Assembly (NCBI RefSeq): GCF_900177405.1
Contig: NZ_LT840185.1
Span: 2,223,501-2,287,500 of the forward strand
From: Allosphingosinicella indica
Lineage (GTDB): Bacteria; Pseudomonadota; Alphaproteobacteria; Sphingomonadales; Sphingomonadaceae
Reading direction: 5' to 3'
Length of the DNA stretch: 64,000 nt
Shown: in pieces, positions 24,830-37,538 of the stretch
Layout: each line of letters opens with the position of its first letter
Position numbering within the stretch: position 1 is the first letter of the stretch
Translations under genes and position numbers: made by a program
The notes under the pieces: generated by a model
Database searches by the model: none
What the model was told of the DNA's origin: nothing
The model's input: the letters and a program-made list of their open reading frames with translations, nothing else

Positions 24830-26221
24830 ATGGACCCCGTGACCGACATCCCAGGCGCCGCCCGCCCGCTCGCTGCGATCATCCTTGCCGCGGGCAAGGG
24901 CACGCGCATGAAATCGGACCTGCACAAGGTCCTCCATCCGCTCGCCGGCAAGCCGATGATCGATCATCTGTTCGACAGCGTGGCCGAACTCGCGCCCGCA
25001 CGACAGGTGGTCGTGGTCGGGGCAGGCCGCGAGCAGCTTGAACCCGTCGCGGCGCAGCGCGGCGCCAGCGTCGCGGTGCAGGAACCGCAGGAGGGCACCG
25101 CCCACGCCGTGCTCCAGGCCAAGGCCGACCTCGCGGGTTTCGACGGCGATGTCCTGATTCTCTACGGCGATACCCCGCTCGTCAGCGTCGAGACGATGCG
25201 AAAAATGCGCGCGCGGCTTCATGCGAACGATGTTCCCATCACCGTGGTGCTCGCCTCCCGCCCCGACGATCCCCAGCATTACGGCCGCATCCTCGCCGAT
25301 GCCGATGGCAACATCGTCAAGATGGTCGAATATAGGGATGCGACGGCTGAGGAGCGCGCGGTAAACCTTTGCAATTCCGGCCTAATGGCTATCCGGGCCA
25401 CCGATCTCTGGCCACTACTCGAAGCGGTCGGCAACGACAATGCGGCGGGCGAATATTACTTGCCGGACATCGTTCAGATCGCGTCTGGACAAGGGCGGCG
25501 GTCGGCGGTGGTCGAGACCGATCCGGCCGAAGTGGCCGGGATCAACAGCCGCGGCGAGCTCGCGGCGGTCGAGGAGGCTTGGCAGCAAGCCCGGCGGCGG
25601 CAGGCGATGGTCGATGGCGTTACGCTGATCGCGCCCGCTACGGTCTGGTTCAGCCACGATACGGCGATCGGCCGCGACACAATCGTAGAGCCCAATGTCG
25701 TCTTCCTGCCCGGCGTGACCATCGGGCAAGGCGTCCGCATCCGCGGGTTCAGCCATCTGGAAGGGGCGACTGTCGCGGACGGCGCGGAGATCGGGCCTTA
25801 CGCGCGGCTCCGGCCTGGCGCCGACATCGGCCCCGTCGCCAAGGTCGGCAATTTCGTCGAGGTGAAGAAGGCGCGGCTCGCGAAGGGGGCCAAGGCCAAT
25901 CACCTCTCCTATATCGGCGATGCCGATGTGGGCGAGGGCGCGAACATCGGGGCTGGAACGATTACATGCAATTACGACGGTTATTTCAAGTACGACACGA
26001 AGATCGGAGCGGGGGCTTTCATCGGCTCCAACAGCGCGCTCGTGGCGCCGGTGTCGATCGGCGACGGCGCGATCGTCGGCGCGGGATCCGTGGTGACCGC
26101 CGATGTTCCGGCCGATGCTCTGGCGCTGGCCCGCGGCAAGCAGGAGGCGCGGCCGGGCTGGGCGGCGCGGTTCCGCGCGATGATGGCGGCCCGCAAGTCC
26201 GGCGGCTCCAAGAAGATATAA
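24830..26221 (+). CDS. glmU: Bifunctional UDP-GlcNAc pyrophosphorylase / GlcN-1-P acetyltransferase
   Basis: 463 residues. Nucleotidyltransferase motif AAIILAAGKGTRMKS at about 16-30, then GTAHAVLQA and YGDTPLV; the C-terminal half is a left-handed beta-helix of hexapeptide repeats with YARLRPG and NHLSYIGDADVGEGANIGAGTITCNYDG. Makes UDP-GlcNAc for peptidoglycan and glycans. glmS follows after 14 bp, a coherent hexosamine operon. Confidence 0.98.
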   Translation: MDPVTDIPGAARPLAAIILAAGKGTRMKSDLHKVLHPLAGKPMIDHLFDSVAELAPARQVVVVGAGREQLEPVAAQRGASVAVQEPQEGTAHAVLQAKADLAGFDGDVLILYGDTPLVSVETMRKMRARLHANDVPITVVLASRPDDPQHYGRILADADGNIVKMVEYRDATAEERAVNLCNSGLMAIRATDLWPLLEAVGNDNAAGEYYLPDIVQIASGQGRRSAVVETDPAEVAGINSRGELAAVEEAWQQARRRQAMVDGVTLIAPATVWFSHDTAIGRDTIVEPNVVFLPGVTIGQGVRIRGFSHLEGATVADGAEIGPYARLRPGADIGPVAKVGNFVEVKKARLAKGAKANHLSYIGDADVGEGANIGAGTITCNYDGYFKYDTKIGAGAFIGSNSALVAPVSIGDGAIVGAGSVVTADVPADALALARGKQEARPGWAARFRAMMAARKSGGSKKI

Positions 26222-28829: not shown

Positions 28830-30422
28830 ATGAGCATGGGGGCCGCGGCGCATCAGCCGTCGAAGAAGGAAATCCGGCTCGTCATCACCGCATCCTCGCT
28901 GGGGACGGTGTTCGAATGGTATGATTTCTTCATCTACGGCACGCTCGCCGCGATCATCGGCCGCACCTTCTTCCCGGCCGAGAGCGAGATCGCACAGCTT
29001 CTGCTCGCGCTCGCCGGGTTCGCCGTCGGCTTCGGCGTCCGCCCGATCGGTGCGGTGCTGTTCGGCTATCTGGGCGACCGGCTCGGGCGGAAATACACCT
29101 TCCTCGTCACCATCACTCTGATGGGCCTCGCCACCGCGGCGATCGGCTTCGTGCCGTCCGCCGCCAGCATTGGCTTCGCCGCGCCGGTGATCATCATCCT
29201 GCTGCGCGTGCTGCAGGGCCTCGCGCTCGGCGGCGAATATGGCGGCGCGGCGATCTACGTCGCCGAGCATGCGCCCGCCGGCAAGCGCGGCTTCTACACC
29301 AGCTTCATCCAGGCTAGTGTCGCCGGCGGCTTCATCCTCAGCCTCGGCGTCGTCCTCGCAACCCAGGCGATCGTCGGTGCCGAGGCATGGGCGGAGTGGG
29401 GCTGGCGCATCCCTTTCATCTTCTCGCTCGCGCTGCTCGCCATTTCGCTCTGGATGCGGTTGAAGCTCTCCGAAAGCCCAGTGTTCCGCGCGATGAAGGA
29501 GGCGGGCGAGATTGCGGCCAATCCGCTCAAGGAAAGCTTCACCTATCCGGGCAACGCCAAGCGCATCCTGGTCGCGCTGTTCGGCATCGCGGCGGGGCTG
29601 ACGGTGATCTGGTACACCGCGATGTTCCAGGTGCTCTACTTCCTGCAGAATGCGCTGAAGGTGGATGACACGACCGCGCAAACGCTGGTCGGCATCGGCG
29701 CCGCGACCGGGCTCATCTGGTTCGTCCTGTTCGGCTGGCTCTCGGACAAGGTGGGGCGCAAGAAGCCGATCGTTATCGGCTATGTGCTGACGCTCCTGCT
29801 GCTATTTCCGCTGTTCAAGATGATCGGCGATGCAGGAAACCCGGAGCTCTCGGCCGCCGCCGAGCGCGCGCCGGTGGTCGTCTCCGGACCGGCCTGCGGC
29901 TACGATCCCTTCGCCAAGACGCAGAAGGGCGAGTGCGGGCGGCTGCTCGACTATTTCTCCAAGAAGGGCGTGGCTTATTCGACCGCGGAGGCACCGCAGG
30001 CTGGCGTCACCATCGGTGGTGCACCTGTGGCCGATACGAGCCCCGCGGCGCTCGATACGGCGCTGTCCGCCGCTGGCTACGATCTCGCCAAGGTTCATCC
30101 GGACGGATGGCGGATCGCGGTGATCCTCGTCGGCGTGCTGGCGCTCTCGGCGCTGTCGGGGGCGACTTTCGGGCCGGTCGCGGCGCTGCTCGCGGAGATG
30201 TTCCCGGCCAGGATTCGCTACAGCTCGATGTCGATTCCCTATCATATCGGCACCGGCTATTTCGGCGGATTCCTGCCGGTCATCAGCCAGTATATCATCG
30301 CGCGGACGGGCGATCCCTATTCGGGCCTCTGGTACACCTTCGCGGTGGTGCTGATGGCATTGATCGTTACCGTCCTCTGGCTCCCCGAGACGGTGAACCG
30401 CAAGGTCGAACAGGCGGCATGA
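28830..30422 (+). CDS. MFS transporter, metabolite:H+ symporter type
   Basis: 530 residues with 12 predicted helices. MHS-family signatures: VFEWYDFFIYGTLAA, RPIGAVLFGYLGDRLGRKYTF, GLALGGEYGGAAIYVAEHAP. Between helices 9 and 10 there is an unusually long polar insertion of about 100 residues (about 338-425, with CGYDPF and GECGRLLDYF, two Cys) facing outside. Substrate probably an organic acid or similar metabolite. GGGGAGGAGG upstream of ATG. Overlaps the next gene by 4 bases. Confidence 0.9.
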   Translation: MSMGAAAHQPSKKEIRLVITASSLGTVFEWYDFFIYGTLAAIIGRTFFPAESEIAQLLLALAGFAVGFGVRPIGAVLFGYLGDRLGRKYTFLVTITLMGLATAAIGFVPSAASIGFAAPVIIILLRVLQGLALGGEYGGAAIYVAEHAPAGKRGFYTSFIQASVAGGFILSLGVVLATQAIVGAEAWAEWGWRIPFIFSLALLAISLWMRLKLSESPVFRAMKEAGEIAANPLKESFTYPGNAKRILVALFGIAAGLTVIWYTAMFQVLYFLQNALKVDDTTAQTLVGIGAATGLIWFVLFGWLSDKVGRKKPIVIGYVLTLLLLFPLFKMIGDAGNPELSAAAERAPVVVSGPACGYDPFAKTQKGECGRLLDYFSKKGVAYSTAEAPQAGVTIGGAPVADTSPAALDTALSAAGYDLAKVHPDGWRIAVILVGVLALSALSGATFGPVAALLAEMFPARIRYSSMSIPYHIGTGYFGGFLPVISQYIIARTGDPYSGLWYTFAVVLMALIVTVLWLPETVNRKVEQAA

Positions 30423-31270
30423 TGCGGCTTCCCAACGGACTGATCGAAGATGCCGGCGCCGTCCTCCGCGAGGCGGCGGCGACCGCGATCCTCCCACGCT
30501 ATCGCGCGCTCGCGGCTAGCGAGATCGAGGAGAAGAGTCCGGGCGAGCTGGTCACCGTCGCCGATCGCGAGGCCGAAGCGATCCTGACGCGGGGACTTGC
30601 GGCGCTGCTGCCCGGATCGCGCGTCATCGGCGAGGAGGCCTGCGCCGCCGACCCATCGCTGATCGACGCGGCCGGGGAGGGGCTCGTCTGGCTCGTCGAT
30701 CCGCTCGACGGCACCGCCAATTTCGCAGCGGGCGAGCCGGTCTTTGCCGTCATGGCGGCGCTGCTCCGCGACGGCGAGACGATCGGCGCCTGGATCCTCG
30801 ATCCGCTGGAAGACACCCTGTGTTCGGCGGAGCTTGGCGCAGGTGCCCAAGTTCCCCGGCGAAAGCCGGCGCCCATTCGCACGTCGGATGCTGGGCCCCG
30901 CCTTTCGCCGGGAAACATGAAAGGCTCGATCGGCCGCTTCATGCCGCCCGATATCGCTGGGGCAGTCGCGAAGCGGGCGGAAGCGTTCGGCGCCCTGCTA
31001 CCCAACATGAAATGCGCCGGCGCCGAATATCCCGCCATCGCCGCCGGCGAGCGTGATTTCGCTTTCTACTGGCGGACGCTGGCCTGGGATCATGCCGCGG
31101 GCGTGCTGCTGCTCAACGAGGCCGGCGGCAAGGCGGCGCGGCCCGACGGATCGCCCTACCGGCCGGGCTGTGCCGGGAGCGGCCTCCTCGCGGCGCATAG
31201 CCCGGAGGCGTGGGAGATGGTTCAGGCCGCGCTGGCGGCGGGCGATTTGGCGAGCCGGTCGAACGCCTGA
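30419..31270 (+). CDS. Inositol monophosphatase family protein containing an in-frame palindromic element
   Basis: 283 residues from ATG 30419 (or the next codon, also ATG). Mg-binding motifs are intact: GEEA (about 76), [11 protein letters not shown] (about 97-107) and [15 protein letters not shown] (about 222-236). It could be a phosphatase for inositol phosphate, a nucleotide bisphosphate or another sugar phosphate. Codons 145-166 are formed by a 66-bp palindrome (30851-30916), which adds a basic, Pro-rich segment (VPRRKPAP...SPGN). The 3' end overlaps convergent kdsA by 49 nt. Confidence 0.88.
30851..30916. repeat. REP-like palindrome inside the phosphatase gene (family D)
   Basis: Arms 30851-30874 (GTTCCCCGGCGAAAGCCGG...) and 30893-30916 (...CTTTCGCCGGGAAAC) pair at 21 of 24 positions around an 18-nt centre. 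This is the form of a sphingomonad-type intergenic palindrome with GGCGAAAGCC stem. Length 66 is divisible by 3 and it begins on a codon boundary of the host gene, keeping the reading frame. Confidence 0.8.
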
Positions 31271-32067
31271 AGCTGCGCCAGCAGCGCGGGCATATCGGCC
31301 AGCGGCACCATGTTCGGCCCGTCGCTCGGCGCCCGCTCGGGCGCCTCGTGTGTCTCGATGAACAATGCCGCGACGCCTACCGCCACCGCGGCCCGCGCCA
31401 GCACCGGCACATATTCGCGCTGCCCGCCCGAGCTGGTGCCTTGGCCGCCCGGCTGCTGCACCGAATGGGTGGCGTCGAACACCACCGGGAAGCCGGTCTC
31501 CGCCAGCACCGGCAGCGCACGCATGTCGCTGACCAACGTATTGTAGCCGAAGCTCGCGCCGCGCTCGGTGAGCATCACGCGATCGTTGCCGGCGGCGACG
31601 AGCTTGGCGGCGACGTTCTTCATGTCCCAGGGCGCAAGAAACTGGCCCTTCTTGACGTTGACCACCCGCCCGGTCCGCGCCGCGGCGACCAGCAGGTCGG
31701 TCTGGCGGCAGAGGAAGGCGGGGATCTGGAGCACGTCGACCACTTCGGCGACGGCCGCGCATTGCGTCGCCTCGTGCACGTCGGTTACCACCGGGCAGCC
31801 GAACCGTTCCTTGATCTCGGCGAAGACGGCGAGCGCCGTGTCGAGCCCGATCCCGCGCGCGGCGTCGATCGACGTGCGGTTCGCCTTGTCGAACGAGGAT
31901 TTGTAGATGAGGCCGATGCCCAGCGCGCGGCACATGGCCGTGAGCGCGTCGGCGGTTTCGATCGCATGATCGCGGCTCTCCATCGCGCAGGGGCCGGCGA
32001 GCAGCACGAACGGACGGTCGTTGGCGATCGAGAGGTCGCCGATGGTGATGGTGCGCGGCGTCGTCAT
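31222..32067 (-). CDS. kdsA: 3-deoxy-8-phosphooctulonate synthase (KdsA), metal-dependent type
   Basis: 281 residues from ATG 32067, two bases after the upstream stop, with GGAGCC as ribosome-binding site (a start at 32085 would overlap the upstream gene). Condenses arabinose-5-phosphate with [15 protein letters not shown] has Cys where metal-independent KdsA has Asn, so it is the metal-dependent class. Also [20 protein letters not shown] and [22 protein letters not shown]. Last gene of a four-gene leftward operon. Confidence 0.95.
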
Positions 32068-32069
32068 GG

Positions 32070-33389
32070 TCAGAAGGCTCCGCAATCGTCGAGGATTTCG
32101 CCCACCGGGCGTCCGCGCGCGGCGAACATGCGGATGCGCGATTCATTGGTCAGCACGTCCCAGGCCTCGGTCTCGACCGCCGGCCAGTGCGCTTCGGGGA
32201 TGACGACCACGCCATCTTCGTCGGCGAAGACGTAATCGCCGTTCGCCACCGGCACGCCGCCGATCAGCACAGGCGCGTTCATCGCCGCCAGCGTGCCTTC
32301 ATACTTGATGTCGTCGCAATAAGAGCCGCGCGCGTAGACGGGGAGGCCGAGCGCGCGCACGTCCGCCGTATCGCGCGTGAAGCCGTCGATCACCGCGCCG
32401 ACCGCGCCGGCGCGGATGGCGAGATTGGCGTTGAGATCGCCAAAATAGGCGCGATTGGGCACCTTGGTCGAGACCATGATGACGTCGCCCGGCCGGATGA
32501 AGCTGTAGGAATCGAGCGCGCGGTAGATGCCCTTCCAGGCATCGGAGCGGCGCGCTTCTTCGTCGAGCGCGGCCAGCTCCAGCGTCTTGGCGCGGCCGAG
32601 AATCTTGCCGCCGCTGGTCGGGCGTATCGCGGCCGGCAGCACCGCCTTCAGTCCGCGCTCCTTGGCGATATCGGCGAGGACGGGGGAGGACAGGTGCGAT
32701 CGCATCGCGCGCAGCCGCCCGGTCTCGACCGCCCGGTGGCCCGCGGCGACGGCTTCGGCCAGCTCCAGATCGGCGGGCACGTTGACGTCGATCTGCTCTT
32801 CCGGCGTGAGATCGAACAGGATCGGCTTCGCGCCGAAGCGCCGGGTAGGGGCGGGATCGCCCTCGCGGCGGCGCACGATGTAGAGGCTCATCGCTTCCAC
32901 CACCGTCGGCGGCAGATCGACGCTGTTGGGAATTCGCCCGCGTCCGTAGAGCGGGTCGGCGCCGTCCCAGCAATATTGCTTGGCGCGCGAGACGCCGACC
33001 AGGCTGTCCGCCTCGGGATCGGCGAGTAGCGCCTCGATCGCGCGCGTCAGCGTCGCAGCGGAAACGAAAGGCGCGGTGCAGAGGCACTGGATGTAGAGAT
33101 CGGCGGGCGGCACCGCGGAACATTCATAAGCGAACATCTCATGGCCGTCGGCGGCGTTGCTCGCCAGCTCGCGCGGGCGCCGCAGCCGCTCGACCGACAG
33201 ATCGGCGGCAAGATCAGCGAGATCGTCGGACTCGGTGTCGAGATAGACGGTATCGATCCGCGGGCAGGCCAGCACCTGCCGGAGCTTGCGTTTGAAGAGG
33301 TGCTCGCCGTCGAGAATGCGCAGGTTCTTGCCCGCGATCCGCTCGCTGCTGCCCTTGGCGGGGACGAAAGCGACGATCCGCGGCGTCAT
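32070..33389 (-). CDS. Fusion: acylneuraminate-type cytidylyltransferase + RraA-like aldolase domain
   Basis: 439 residues. Residues 1-225 are a CMP-sugar synthetase of the NeuA type ([17 protein letters not shown] at about 8-24, [25 protein letters not shown]), not the KdsB type. From about 235 the chain is RraA-like: [67 protein letters not shown] with the conserved Arg-Asp pair, [18 protein letters not shown]. RraA-like proteins include class II pyruvate aldolases (HMG/CHA aldolase). The start overlaps the kpsF stop by 4 bases. Joins sugar activation with a 2-keto acid-type domain; the second activity is not known. Confidence 0.9.
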
Positions 33390-34384
33390 GCCTGCACCAG
33401 ATCGTAAGTGTGGATCATGCCCTCGAGTACGCCGGCTTCGTTGACCACCGGCAGCACCAGAAAGCGGCCGCCGCTGTCCTGCATCAGCACCAGCGCGTCG
33501 GCGACGTTCGCCTCGGCAGGCAGGGTCACCGGATCGGCGCCCATGATCGCCTCGGCGCGAGTTTCGTAGAGATCCTGGCGGGACTGGATGAGGCGGCGGA
33601 TGTCGCCGTCGACGATGAGGCCCAGGAAACGTCCGTCGTGATCGACGACGGAGGCGGCGCCAAGACGCTTCGCCGACATGACGCCGATCAGCTCGGCGAC
33701 CGAGGCGTGCGGCAGCACCGTCGGCATGTCCTCACCGCTCCGCATCAGGTGGCGGATGGGAATCATGTGGCGGCCGAGCAGCCCGGCCGGGTGGTGGCGG
33801 AGGAAATCGTCGCGGGTGAAGCCGCGAAGCCGGCTGACCGCGACCGCGAGCGCATCGCCCACAGCCATCTGCAGCGTGGTCGATGCGGTCGGCGCCATGC
33901 CGATATGGTCGGCCTCGCGCGCGATCTCGGTCAGGATGAGATGGTCGGCGGCGCGCGCCAGCGGCGATTCCGCCCTGCCGACGATGCCGATGAGCAGGCA
34001 GCCGCGCGCCTTCAGCAGCGGCAGAATGCGCAATATCTCGTCGGTCGCGCCGCTGTTCGAGAAGAGGATGACGACATTACCGGTCTGCACCGCGCCGAGA
34101 TCGCCATGCGCGGCTTCCGCGGCGTTGAGGAACAGCGCGGGCGTGCCGAGGCTGGAGAAGGTGGCGGCGAGCTTGGCGGCGACGAGCCCCGACTTGCCGA
34201 CGCCGGTGCAGACGATTGGCCGCTCCTGCCCGGCGATCAGCGCGACGGCGTCGGTGACGTCGGCCTGGTCGCTGGCGATGAACGCTGTGATCGCGTCGCG
34301 CTCGGTCTCGAGCACTTGGCGGAACCACTGGTCCGGCCCATCGACGACGGCGGCGCCGTCTATGCGGAAGGGAAGCGCGGTCAT
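33386..34384 (-). CDS. kpsF: D-arabinose-5-phosphate isomerase (KpsF/GutQ/KdsD family)
   Basis: 332 residues. SIS domain with VCTGVGKSGLVAAKLAATFSSLGTPALFLNAAEAAHGDLG and FSNSGATDEILRILP, then GMAPTASTTLQMAVGDALAV, then two CBS domains (about 210-265 and 275-330). Converts ribulose-5-phosphate to arabinose-5-phosphate, the KdsA substrate. Overlaps both neighbours by 4 bases. Presence beside kdsA defines a 3-deoxy-octulosonate pathway. Confidence 0.95.
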   Translation of the reverse strand: MTALPFRIDGAAVVDGPDQWFRQVLETERDAITAFIASDQADVTDAVALIAGQERPIVCTGVGKSGLVAAKLAATFSSLGTPALFLNAAEAAHGDLGAVQTGNVVILFSNSGATDEILRILPLLKARGCLLIGIVGRAESPLARAADHLILTEIAREADHIGMAPTASTTLQMAVGDALAVAVSRLRGFTRDDFLRHHPAGLLGRHMIPIRHLMRSGEDMPTVLPHASVAELIGVMSAKRLGAASVVDHDGRFLGLIVDGDIRRLIQSRQDLYETRAEAIMGADPVTLPAEANVADALVLMQDSGGRFLVLPVVNEAGVLEGMIHTYDLVQA

Positions 34385-35553
34385 TGGAAAAGCTCCGGCT
34401 TGAACGCGCGATAGCGGGCCATGCCCAGTTCCCAGCGGCCGGGATCGAAGGGCGTCAGCGTCCGCGCGATCAGTTCGTCGGCGGATACCTCGGGGTCGCG
34501 GGGGTCGAAGGCGTTGTTGGCGATGTGATAACCAAACCAGGTCTTGGCATCGGCGGGATCGGCGATGTCCGCGTTGCCGTCCTGCAGACCGGCCGCGAAG
34601 CGATCAAGGCAACTATAGACGCGTGTCCATTCGCCGCTGGCGAAGGTTGACCGGCGGACAACGGATTTGCCGTAGAAAGCACCAGAAGTCAGCGTCTTGC
34701 CATTCTCGACGAAGATCCCGTCGCAATGCATGTTGATGAGCCGCGTCGCCGATCCGCGCTCGCCCTCATCGGCGATCAGGCGCGCGCGATCGGGCATTGC
34801 AGCGATCGTCCGCTCCAATGCGCGATTGTCGACGTGGAGCACGTTCAGCGGATGGTTGCTCACCGCGAGGAAAATTTCGTCGCCGAGTGTTTCCGCGAGC
34901 TCGGCGACAAGATCGGCGTTGCGCTGGTGGCTGCTGTGGATGCGGAAGAAATTCTCGCGATGCTCATATTCCAGCGGCACCGCGACGATGATCTTGTCGG
35001 AAGGCAGGCCGTAGCGCTCGCACATGGCCGCGCGGCCGATCGCCTGGCGTTCCGCGTCGCGGCGCAACGCGTCCCAGGCGGGAGCGATCGCGGCGTCGAT
35101 CCAGTCGCGCTGGCTGGCGCTGAGCTCTGGAATTTCGGCGGTCGCGAACGGGCTGTCCTTCAGATGCAACTCGTAGCCGGCAACAGGGAAGGGCGAGGCG
35201 CCGCCCTCCATCAGATGCTTGACGACGCCGGGGAAGGCGGCGGGTGTATCGAGATCGGCGCTGCGGCAGAAGCTGATGTCCGGCGCGATTGCGCGCACCA
35301 GATCGACGATTTCCGCGCGATCCGCCTCTCCGGTGCGGAGCAGCGGATGATCTTCGCCGTCGAGGATGTGCCAGGCGACATGATCGAGATCGGCGCAATT
35401 GGCGAGTTGGTCGGGTCCGATGCCCGTCCCGCTCCACAGCGGCGGCACCATGACATGCACTTCATGCTCGCGGGCGAGCGCGCGGATCGGGTGGATGACG
35501 ATATTGTCGAACCACCAAGGCGTCACCACCGGCAGGTAGAATAGGATCCGCAT
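34381..35553 (-). CDS. Putative glycosyltransferase of the Kdo-type operon
   Basis: 390 residues, first gene of the operon, ATG at 35551-35553 preceded by GGGGGC. N-terminal MRILFYLPVVTPWWFDNIVIHPIRALAREHEVHVMVPPLW resembles the Rossmann-like start of GT-B enzymes. LEYEHRENFFRIHSSHQRNADLVAEL, AVSNHPLNVLHVD and INMHCDGIFVENGKTLTSGAFYGKSVVR look like the donor half of capsule-type transferases (compare KpsC/KpsS), where a late Asn/Glu-Gly motif binds CMP-Kdo. I do not recognise a named family; transferase of the CMP-activated sugar is inferred from position. Confidence 0.6.
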   Translation of the reverse strand: MRILFYLPVVTPWWFDNIVIHPIRALAREHEVHVMVPPLWSGTGIGPDQLANCADLDHVAWHILDGEDHPLLRTGEADRAEIVDLVRAIAPDISFCRSADLDTPAAFPGVVKHLMEGGASPFPVAGYELHLKDSPFATAEIPELSASQRDWIDAAIAPAWDALRRDAERQAIGRAAMCERYGLPSDKIIVAVPLEYEHRENFFRIHSSHQRNADLVAELAETLGDEIFLAVSNHPLNVLHVDNRALERTIAAMPDRARLIADEGERGSATRLINMHCDGIFVENGKTLTSGAFYGKSVVRRSTFASGEWTRVYSCLDRFAAGLQDGNADIADPADAKTWFGYHIANNAFDPRDPEVSADELIARTLTPFDPGRWELGMARYRAFKPELFQ

Positions 35554-37097: not shown

Positions 37098-37538
37098 TCA
37101 GCAGCTCCGGCCGACCTCGCGGCCGAGCAGCGCGCCGGCGACACCGCCGACGATCGCGCCGGTCGTTCCGTCGCCGCGGCGGTAGTAGCGGCCGCTGCCG
37201 CGATCGATCTCGCGGCCGAGCAGCGCGCCCGCAGCGCCGCCGACGATCGCGCCGGTCGTGCCGCTGCCGCAGCGGCGGCCATAATAGCCGCGACGGTCAT
37301 AATAGCGGCCACGGTTGTAATAATTGCGGCCGCGATAGCCGCGGCGGTCGTAATAGCCGCGGTCGTAGTTGCGGTAGTAGCGATCGCCCCGATAGGCGCG
37401 CCGGTCGTAATAGCCGGATTGATAATAGCCGCCGCCATAATAGCGATCGCCATAATAGCCCTGCGCCTGCGCGGCGGCGGGGAGAGCGGTGAAGGTGGCG
37501 GCAAACGCTGCGCCGCCGATCAACAGACTTCTCAACAT
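37098..37538 (-). CDS. Exported Tyr/Arg/Gly-rich glycine-zipper protein
   Basis: 146 residues. Signal peptide 1-25 (ending AQAQ). Residues 27-85 are repeats of YYDRR/YRGRNYY type, about one third Tyr. Two near-identical glycine-zipper segments follow: TTGAIVGGAAGALLGREIDR (about 94-113) and TTGAIVGGVAGALLGREVGR (about 125-144). Glycine zipper 2TM proteins sit in the cell envelope; the internal duplication suggests unit expansion. Function not established. Confidence 0.8.
   Translation of the reverse strand: MLRSLLIGGAAFAATFTALPAAAQAQGYYGDRYYGGGYYQSGYYDRRAYRGDRYYRNYDRGYYDRRGYRGRNYYNRGRYYDRRGYYGRRCGSGTTGAIVGGAAGALLGREIDRGSGRYYRRGDGTTGAIVGGVAGALLGREVGRSC

Follow-up and report, generated by a model that had tools for sequence, protein, structure and literature searches.

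The window analysed here, a stretch of 64,000 nucleotides from Allosphingosinicella indica, carries on its minus strand a tightly packed four-gene operon which encodes, in this order, a glycosyltransferase (GT), an isomerase of the KdsD type, a fusion protein and KdsA (Table 1). In the fusion protein a NeuA-type cytidylyltransferase is joined to an RraA-like domain. The plus strand of the same interval is broken by a stop, and both peptides quoted in a preliminary description of this DNA lie inside one chain of 439 residues on the minus strand, with coordinates that were given correctly there. The kdsA reading frame as listed begins with TTG at 32085; the ATG at 32067, just past the stop of the fusion gene, is the likelier start. 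Convergent with kdsA lies a gene of the inositol monophosphatase (IMPase) family, whose start was chosen within a longer open reading frame. It adjoins kdsA in six loci (the window, L001, L004, L015, L016 and L068). Judged by its family, its product is a possible candidate for the Kdo-8-phosphate phosphatase in lineages without KdsC. Elsewhere in the window, a short open reading frame rich in Tyr, Gly and Arg with repeated YYDRRGY-like segments is located at 37098-37538 on the minus strand.

Table 1. Coordinates of the fusion gene, its neighbours and related gene groups. L numbers designate loci other than the window.
Feature	Position	Strand	Evidence and remarks
Fusion gene (439 aa) for a NeuA-type cytidylyltransferase with a predicted RraA-like lyase	32070..33389	-	ORF, Pfam, model, Foldseek
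Residues 1-225 (N-terminal half) with the fold of NeuA-type CMP-ulosonate synthetases; motif PAKG.S.R...KN invariant	32715..33389	-	PF02348, Foldseek, 17-row alignment
Residues 232-439 (C-terminal half), predicted class II lyase domain of the RraA-like type; G317, R339, D340 and E416 invariant	32073..32696	-	PF03737, Foldseek
KdsD/KpsF-type arabinose-5-phosphate isomerase (SIS + CBS)	33386..34384	-	TIGR00393; 4-base overlap with fusion start
GT-B glycosyltransferase, candidate beta-Kdo-transferase-like enzyme, HP motif H234-P235 invariant	34381..35553	-	Model, Foldseek, alignment; 4-base overlap with kdsD
KdsA, Kdo-8-phosphate synthase	31222..32085	-	TIGR01362, 407.3 bits, cut-off 314
IMPase-family protein, convergent with kdsA	30347..31270	+	PF00459, E 8.5e-41
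GT + different NeuA-type gene + HAD phosphatase	L097:5838-8488		
GT + different NeuA-type gene + HAD phosphatase	L099:6376-9075		
GT + different NeuA-type gene + IMPase-family phosphatase	L098:10873-14880		

Domains of the fusion protein and fold of the neighbouring glycosyltransferase

The preliminary description had read the protein as a NeuA-type synthetase fused to an RraA-like domain and had proposed a HMMER search for both. In our hmmscan analysis against Pfam both families were recovered above their cut-offs. PF02348 matched residues 7-128 (53.2 bits with a cut-off of 22.6, E 4.4e-14) and PF03737 matched residues 238-396 (100.1 bits with a cut-off of 24.5, E 1.7e-28), by which the C-terminal half proves to be RraA-like. 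None of the NCBIfam cut-offs was reached by either half. This comprises PseF (TIGR03584, 40.9 bits, cut-off 205.7), the KdsB-type models PRK05450 and TIGR00466 (best 29.9, cut-off 193), the HMG/CHA aldolase equivalogs PRK09262 (77.0, cut-off 179) and TIGR02798 (70.3, cut-off 304.5) as well as the equivalog of the RNase E regulator RraA (PRK09372, 40.3, cut-off 136). An AlphaFold2 model calculated from a 17-row alignment (mean pLDDT 90.1, pTM 0.86) splits into a half with NeuA fold and a half with RraA fold. For the C-terminal half Foldseek returned the RraA-like proteins 3k4i, 5x15 and 3noj, the last being an HMG/CHA aldolase. For the N-terminal half the NeuA enzymes 6ifd, 9t4z (a CMP-Kdn synthetase) and 1qwj ranked above the KdsB-type structures 1h7e and 2y6p. 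The residues P10-A-K-G, R17 and K21-N22, which we take to be the nucleotide-binding motif, are invariant in the 17-row alignment.

By family and fold the N-terminal half is a NeuA-type cytidylyltransferase, and CMP transfer is predicted for it. As this half is closer to NeuA and CMP-Kdn synthetases than to KdsB, Kdo itself may not be the substrate. A 2-keto-3-deoxy sugar acid, as assumed in the preliminary description, is very probably activated, since genes of the KdsD and KdsA type flank the fusion. The isomerase exceeded the cut-off of the KpsF/GutQ subfamily model TIGR00393 (233.2 bits, cut-off 203.7) and stayed below that of the KdsD equivalog (235.5 bits, cut-off 505).

The GT had no match in Pfam or NCBIfam. 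Its model (pLDDT 91.9) matched many GT-B enzymes when Foldseek hits were sorted by E-value. Among the 50 chains listed, the WbbB-Kdo adduct 8csd had the best TM-score (0.51) but was only 18th by E-value. Next by TM-score came further WbbB chains and KpsC 6mgd (0.41/0.51), and no other listed chain exceeded 0.36. For WbbB the nucleophile Asp232, the base Glu158 and His265 of the HP motif have been described (PMC9587256). In the GT, H234-P235 and E116 are invariant in 16 rows; 33-34 residues ahead of the HP motif it has E200/N201 and not Asp, a comparison with WbbB by spacing alone. KrkA (GT140) has been presented as a further family of the WbbB/KpsC fold with negligible sequence similarity (PMC12887879). 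We treat the GT as a candidate beta-Kdo-transferase-like enzyme that may belong near GT99 and GT107 by its fold. When its profile was compared by hhalign with 11 proteins whose genes adjoin the fusion, or relatives of it, in other lineages, the Pseudomonas protein was a weak hit (probability 38%) and the other ten reached at most 1.1%, so that a sequence link was rejected.

Distribution of the fusion and of Kdo-pathway genes

A taxonomic survey of the architecture had also been proposed, and our scan of genome contigs yielded 36 related loci. Both halves were present in 35 of them, with matches from residue 1-5 to residue 433 or beyond and 54-76% identity in the best segment; L020 carries its match in two pieces. 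The remaining locus, L036, matches residues 4-72 only. According to record titles, the hosts are Sphingomonas, Novosphingobium, Erythrobacter and other sphingomonads, Parvularcula, Rhizobium, Agrobacterium vitis and Pseudomonas kuykendallii as well as aquatic Alphaproteobacteria MAGs, some of them titled Marinimicrobia. Since the peptide patterns of the scan favour close relatives, 36 loci are a lower bound.

Nevertheless, the full-length fusion is rare. Of 99 genomes sampled from the window's family, taken as Sphingomonadaceae by the titles of the nearest loci, two carry it, as do three of 298 in a larger draw. With at most four candidates scored per genome, the full-length form was further detected in 2 of 398 genomes of the phylum (the window's genome G000 and G140). 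In the class, three of the 385 genomes searched, namely G000, G538 and G742, have a fusion, full-length or not. The frame of the relative in G742 (L087:9167-10351, minus strand) stops at 394 residues, short of the E416 region. In six of six other genomes sampled from the same genus, neither the GT nor KdsA nor the fusion was matched at the thresholds used. An artefact or chance fusion was rejected given the 35 relatives and the fusions in G081, G140, G538 and G1022, some of which possibly belong to the same species as named loci. A mobile-element origin was also rejected, as phages gave no match and none of the 709 matching plasmid records covered 80% of the query in one place. Likewise, PADLOC reported no defence system for the fusion or the GT, and a role in defence was discarded. 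Foreign base composition was considered too, and the GC content over 31-36 kb (0.65-0.71, compared to 0.64-0.72 around it) was uninformative.

The order GT-KdsD-fusion was recovered by tblastn over the fetched loci in 19 of the 36 (L001-L018 and L020), and also in the window, L068 and L096. L001 and L003-L018 bear titles of sphingomonad type, L002 is titled Alphaproteobacteria and L020 Hyphomicrobiales. KdsA directly follows the fusion in 11 of these 19 loci and in the window, L068 and L096 (in two pieces in L096); in L009 its identity is only 47%, and L007 ends at the fusion. In the other 16 of the 35 full fusion loci (L019 and L021-L035) the available flanks contain no KdsD and no GT of this kind, and among them only L019 has a KdsA, which is divergent. 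In ten of the aquatic alphaproteobacterial loci two further clustered genes follow the fusion; in L024 these encode an NTP_transf_3 protein and a protein barely above the Glyphos_transf cut-off. The Pseudomonas fusion adjoins a multi-domain GT with a Capsule_synth segment and is surrounded by genes that are presumably flagellar. A large protein with no assigned function recurs beside the fusion across several lineages (L001:2980-5763, L004, L015, L032, L033 and L088). It contains a HAD domain in L032, and the member in L088 has no Pfam match.

Kdo-pathway genes were searched in 21 fusion genomes, namely those of 19 of the 36 loci, G000 and G081. One could imagine that the RraA half condenses pyruvate with a free aldose to give the ulosonate and that CMP activation draws this reaction forward, which would make KdsA dispensable. 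Such a route would fit the 16 loci whose flanks lack KdsD and this GT. However, KdsA was above its cut-off in all 21 genomes, in seven of which it may serve LPS as WaaA is also present, and its position directly behind the fusion in the 11 loci mentioned above likewise argues against this route, which we regard as very unlikely. WaaA (PF04413) was found in none of the 14 sphingomonads among the 21. KdsB (TIGR00466) was above the cut-off in six genomes, none of them a sphingomonad; six sphingomonad genomes have a weaker KdsB-like match of 104-142 bits (one partial), and some weak match exists in all 21. Therefore, the fusion is not simply the CMP-Kdo synthetase of its hosts. Capsule_synth was present in 12 of the 21 genomes.

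In the window's genome WaaA, Capsule_synth and KdsB above the cut-off were not detected. Its only match to TIGR00466 (26.6 bits) falls not in the fusion but in the reading frame at 24830-26221, presumably GlmU. By appearance, G000 thus has a self-contained Kdo pathway apart from LPS, in which the fusion is the sole candidate CMP-Kdo synthetase found; within the families searched, no candidate for a Kdo transferase other than the neighbouring GT turned up. The preliminary description therefore held in part. The domain identities and the probable substrate stood, whereas the operon, the Kdo-transferase-like neighbour and the failure to detect an LPS Kdo transferase, which together narrow the function of the fusion, were not mentioned there. 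Each of the three roles suggested there, removal of misformed ulosonates, channelling of pyruvate or assembly of a complex, may still apply.

In this sample of the family, fusion and KdsA go together. All three fusion genomes among the 298 of the family (G000, G081 and G1022) have a KdsA match, the one in G1022 being partial and below the cut-off, compared to 79 of the 298 overall (presence scored at E <= 1e-60). The GT occurs in six of these genomes, in the three just named and, without the fusion, in G857, G988 and G1024. The latter are outside the 79 KdsA genomes; the numbers are small and the genomes related. Behind the GT of G857, G988 (which has two GT copies) and G1024 lie a NeuA-type gene unlike that of the fusion and a phosphatase gene (Table 1). 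The same GT family thus seems to use another, second CMP-sugar where the fusion is missing. KdsA is present in 79 of 298 genomes, whereas WaaA was found in none of the 14 fusion-bearing sphingomonad genomes checked; many members of the family may thus use Kdo outside LPS.

KdsC was above its cut-off in only one of the 21 fusion genomes (Pseudomonas), with weak matches in four more. This would suit an RraA half that replaces the missing KdsC-type phosphatase and dephosphorylates Kdo-8-phosphate. So would the three genomes with the GT but no fusion, where a plain NeuA-type gene comes after the GT together with a phosphatase of the HAD type (L097, L099) or of the IMPase family (L098). In G008, G016 and G849, neighbouring NeuA and KdsC matches lie in a single open frame, with KdsC scores below the curated cut-offs, which for G008 and G016 fits this idea. 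Nonetheless, we consider it very unlikely. KdsC was above the cut-off in none of 99 family genomes, so that its absence is not specific to fusion genomes, and we know of no phosphatase activity for the RraA fold. Furthermore, in G849 a KdsC-type domain (best score 113.7 bits, cut-off 208) forms the C-terminal part of a NeuA gene, and a stand-alone RraA gene starts 2 bases on. RraA here accompanies a NeuA that already bears such a domain, a sign that the RraA half does more than substitute for KdsC.

The split pair was found in this one of 385 genomes of the class, and it is the strongest sign that the NeuA and RraA functions share one pathway. The G849 NeuA half groups with 14 sampled fusion NeuA halves (97/94), on a long branch that could fall inside the fusion group. 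In a 43-row RraA tree 11 sampled fusion rows group together (94/87) and join the stand-alone G849 protein (99/93; long branch). Upstream of the pair lie a gene of the DAHP-synthase type (TIGR01361, 318.6 bits, cut-off 267.75) and a gene for a ribulose-phosphate-3-epimerase-like barrel with a CBS region that matches KpsF/KdsD models as well (L086:11504-12514, minus strand). By appearance, this cluster serves the synthesis of a different CMP-ulosonate, possibly CMP-DAH.

Active-site residues of the RraA-like half

For HMG/CHA aldolase, the literature describes Arg-123 as stabilising the pyruvate enolate, Asp-124 and Glu-199 as metal-binding and Gly-101 as lining the pocket (PMC5065237). The equivalent residues G317, R339, D340 and E416 of the fusion were present in all 36 rows (the window and L001-L035); the equivalence of E416 to Glu-199 is taken from the MAFFT alignment and is shifted by two in the phmmer alignment. 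Position 318 is D in 34 rows, E in one and N in one. With 33 of 208 columns invariant in the RraA half of the 17-row alignment, four random columns would all be invariant with p ~5e-4. A set of ten 'active-site' residues (0/20000) had been chosen after the alignment was viewed; it was not counted and the four literature residues were used instead. Overall, variability is somewhat higher in the RraA half, which has a mean entropy of 1.22 versus 1.05 in the NeuA half, and 33/208 versus 51/211 invariant columns.

Arg, Asp and Glu are also kept in aligned RraA-like relatives and therefore indicate an RraA-type active site and not a specific reaction. In that alignment N320 is found in fusion rows only and T338 in fusion rows and the G849 protein only. 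At position 360 the fusion has Asp as in the rows with 'PLDSKGRG' and 'AQDQ', unlike the HMG/CHA rows ('GT-VKETLG'). No sequence feature of this half tells an epimerase from an aldolase, dehydratase or decarboxylase. Taken together, the RraA half is apparently a metal-dependent class II lyase whose active site, as far as can be predicted from its residues, is intact.

There are precedents for a domain of this kind that only sets the oligomer or regulates. In mammalian CMAS the HAD domain at the C-terminus probably determines oligomerisation only, and RraA, the fold of which is shared by this half according to Foldseek, is known as a non-catalytic regulator. RraA was described as binding the RNA degradosome (PMC5065237). 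Retention of the four residues in 36 of 36 rows speaks against such a structural or regulatory role, and we find it unlikely. Alternatively, the half could be a proofreading retro-aldolase that converts misformed or competing 2-keto-3-deoxy acids, and not the acid of the NeuA half, to pyruvate and aldose. KdsA is already stereospecific, however, so that a source of misformed acid is hard to see, and joining a destroying enzyme to an activating one would be unusual. Although the catalytic residues are intact and HMG/CHA aldolase canonically catalyses aldol cleavage (PMC5065237), we rate proofreading as unlikely.

Proposed function and comparison with known systems

We tentatively favour, at a little below an even chance, a bifunctional CMP-ulosonate synthetase of a non-LPS Kdo operon in which the RraA lyase half would act at C3-C4 before activation. 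Judging from the family matches, KdsD would make arabinose 5-phosphate and KdsA Kdo-8-phosphate, from which a phosphatase, possibly the convergent IMPase-family neighbour, would release Kdo. The RraA half would act on the same acid in its open-chain 2-keto-3-deoxy form. The ulosonate obtained would, in view of the family and neighbours of the NeuA half, be joined to CMP by that half, and the beta-Kdo-transferase-like GT of the operon would transfer it to a surface glycan. A CMP-sugar has no free keto group, and the lyase half should therefore act before activation. The class II lyase of the RraA fold works via the enolate of a 2-keto acid (PMC5065237). On a free 3-deoxy-2-ulosonate such chemistry could lead to C3-C4 retro-aldol cleavage, to C4 epimerisation on recombination or to C4 dehydration.

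Two options may be distinguished for the preferred reading: a reversible retro-aldol/aldol reaction that alters the configuration at C4, or a cleavage that sets the pool size. We lean to the former since fused enzymes usually catalyse consecutive steps. For the same reason, and because KdsB is above the cut-off in six of the 21 fusion genomes, a modified ulosonate is favoured as substrate of the NeuA half. The most specific version, in which RraA is a C4 epimerase and the fusion leads to an undescribed CMP-sugar (e.g. 4-epi-Kdo) for a new beta-Kdo-type GT branch in bacteria without LPS Kdo, is unlikely on present evidence.

The preliminary description knew of no described activity for this combination, and we also found no description of a fusion of RraA and a cytidylyltransferase in the open-access PMC literature. 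Searches of the same literature for RraA with CMP-Kdo or an RraA-like aldolase in polysaccharide biosynthesis, for acylneuraminate cytidylyltransferase with dimethylmenaquinone methyltransferase, and for the Kdo-8-phosphate phosphatase KdsC in Alphaproteobacteria returned nothing; the few papers found for Kdo in Sphingomonas look unrelated. A CMP-ulosonate synthetase with an RraA-like second domain is thus not found reported in the open-access literature searched. If the lyase half acts on the sugar that is activated by the NeuA half, the large and mostly uncharacterised RraA-like family would gain a biosynthetic role, and a new step would precede the activation of ulosonic acids with CMP. Such an activity would also point to a Kdo-type surface glycan in those sphingomonads in which no LPS Kdo transferase is detected. 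A C4 epimerase would be the first epimerase of RraA fold as far as known and would open a new route to CMP-ulosonic acids. Because split and fused forms exist, the lyase question can be tested with one or two proteins.

Several known systems resemble parts of this pathway. WbbB (GT99) and KpsC (GT107), retaining beta-Kdo transferases, gave the best TM-scores among the 50 chains listed and have an HP motif as in the GT, but they share no sequence-family match with it, and their nucleophile Asp is not evident in the GT. KdsB, the CMP-Kdo synthetase, probably has the same position in the pathway as the fusion, whose fold is nearer to NeuA. The HMG/CHA aldolase 3noj and the RraA-like class II pyruvate lyases have the fold and the catalytic Gly, Arg, Asp and Glu in common with the fusion. 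HMG/CHA aldolase differs by its Gly-144/Thr-145 loop, where the fusion has 'DIKYEGT', and the fusion in addition contains a sugar-nucleotide synthetase. FlDet, a member of the RraA family, dehydrates and decarboxylates 2-keto-3-deoxy-glucarate (PMC8563752). Unlike the fusion it is a stand-alone catabolic enzyme; acting on a 2-keto-3-deoxy sugar acid, it provides a precedent for the RraA half. The domain architecture itself recalls the NeuA-KdsC synthetases. These bifunctional CMP-ulosonate synthetases are of the CMP-Kdn type. Like the fusion, they extend a NeuA-type cytidylyltransferase by a C-terminal domain that belongs to its pathway; this second domain is a HAD phosphatase in them and RraA-like in the fusion.
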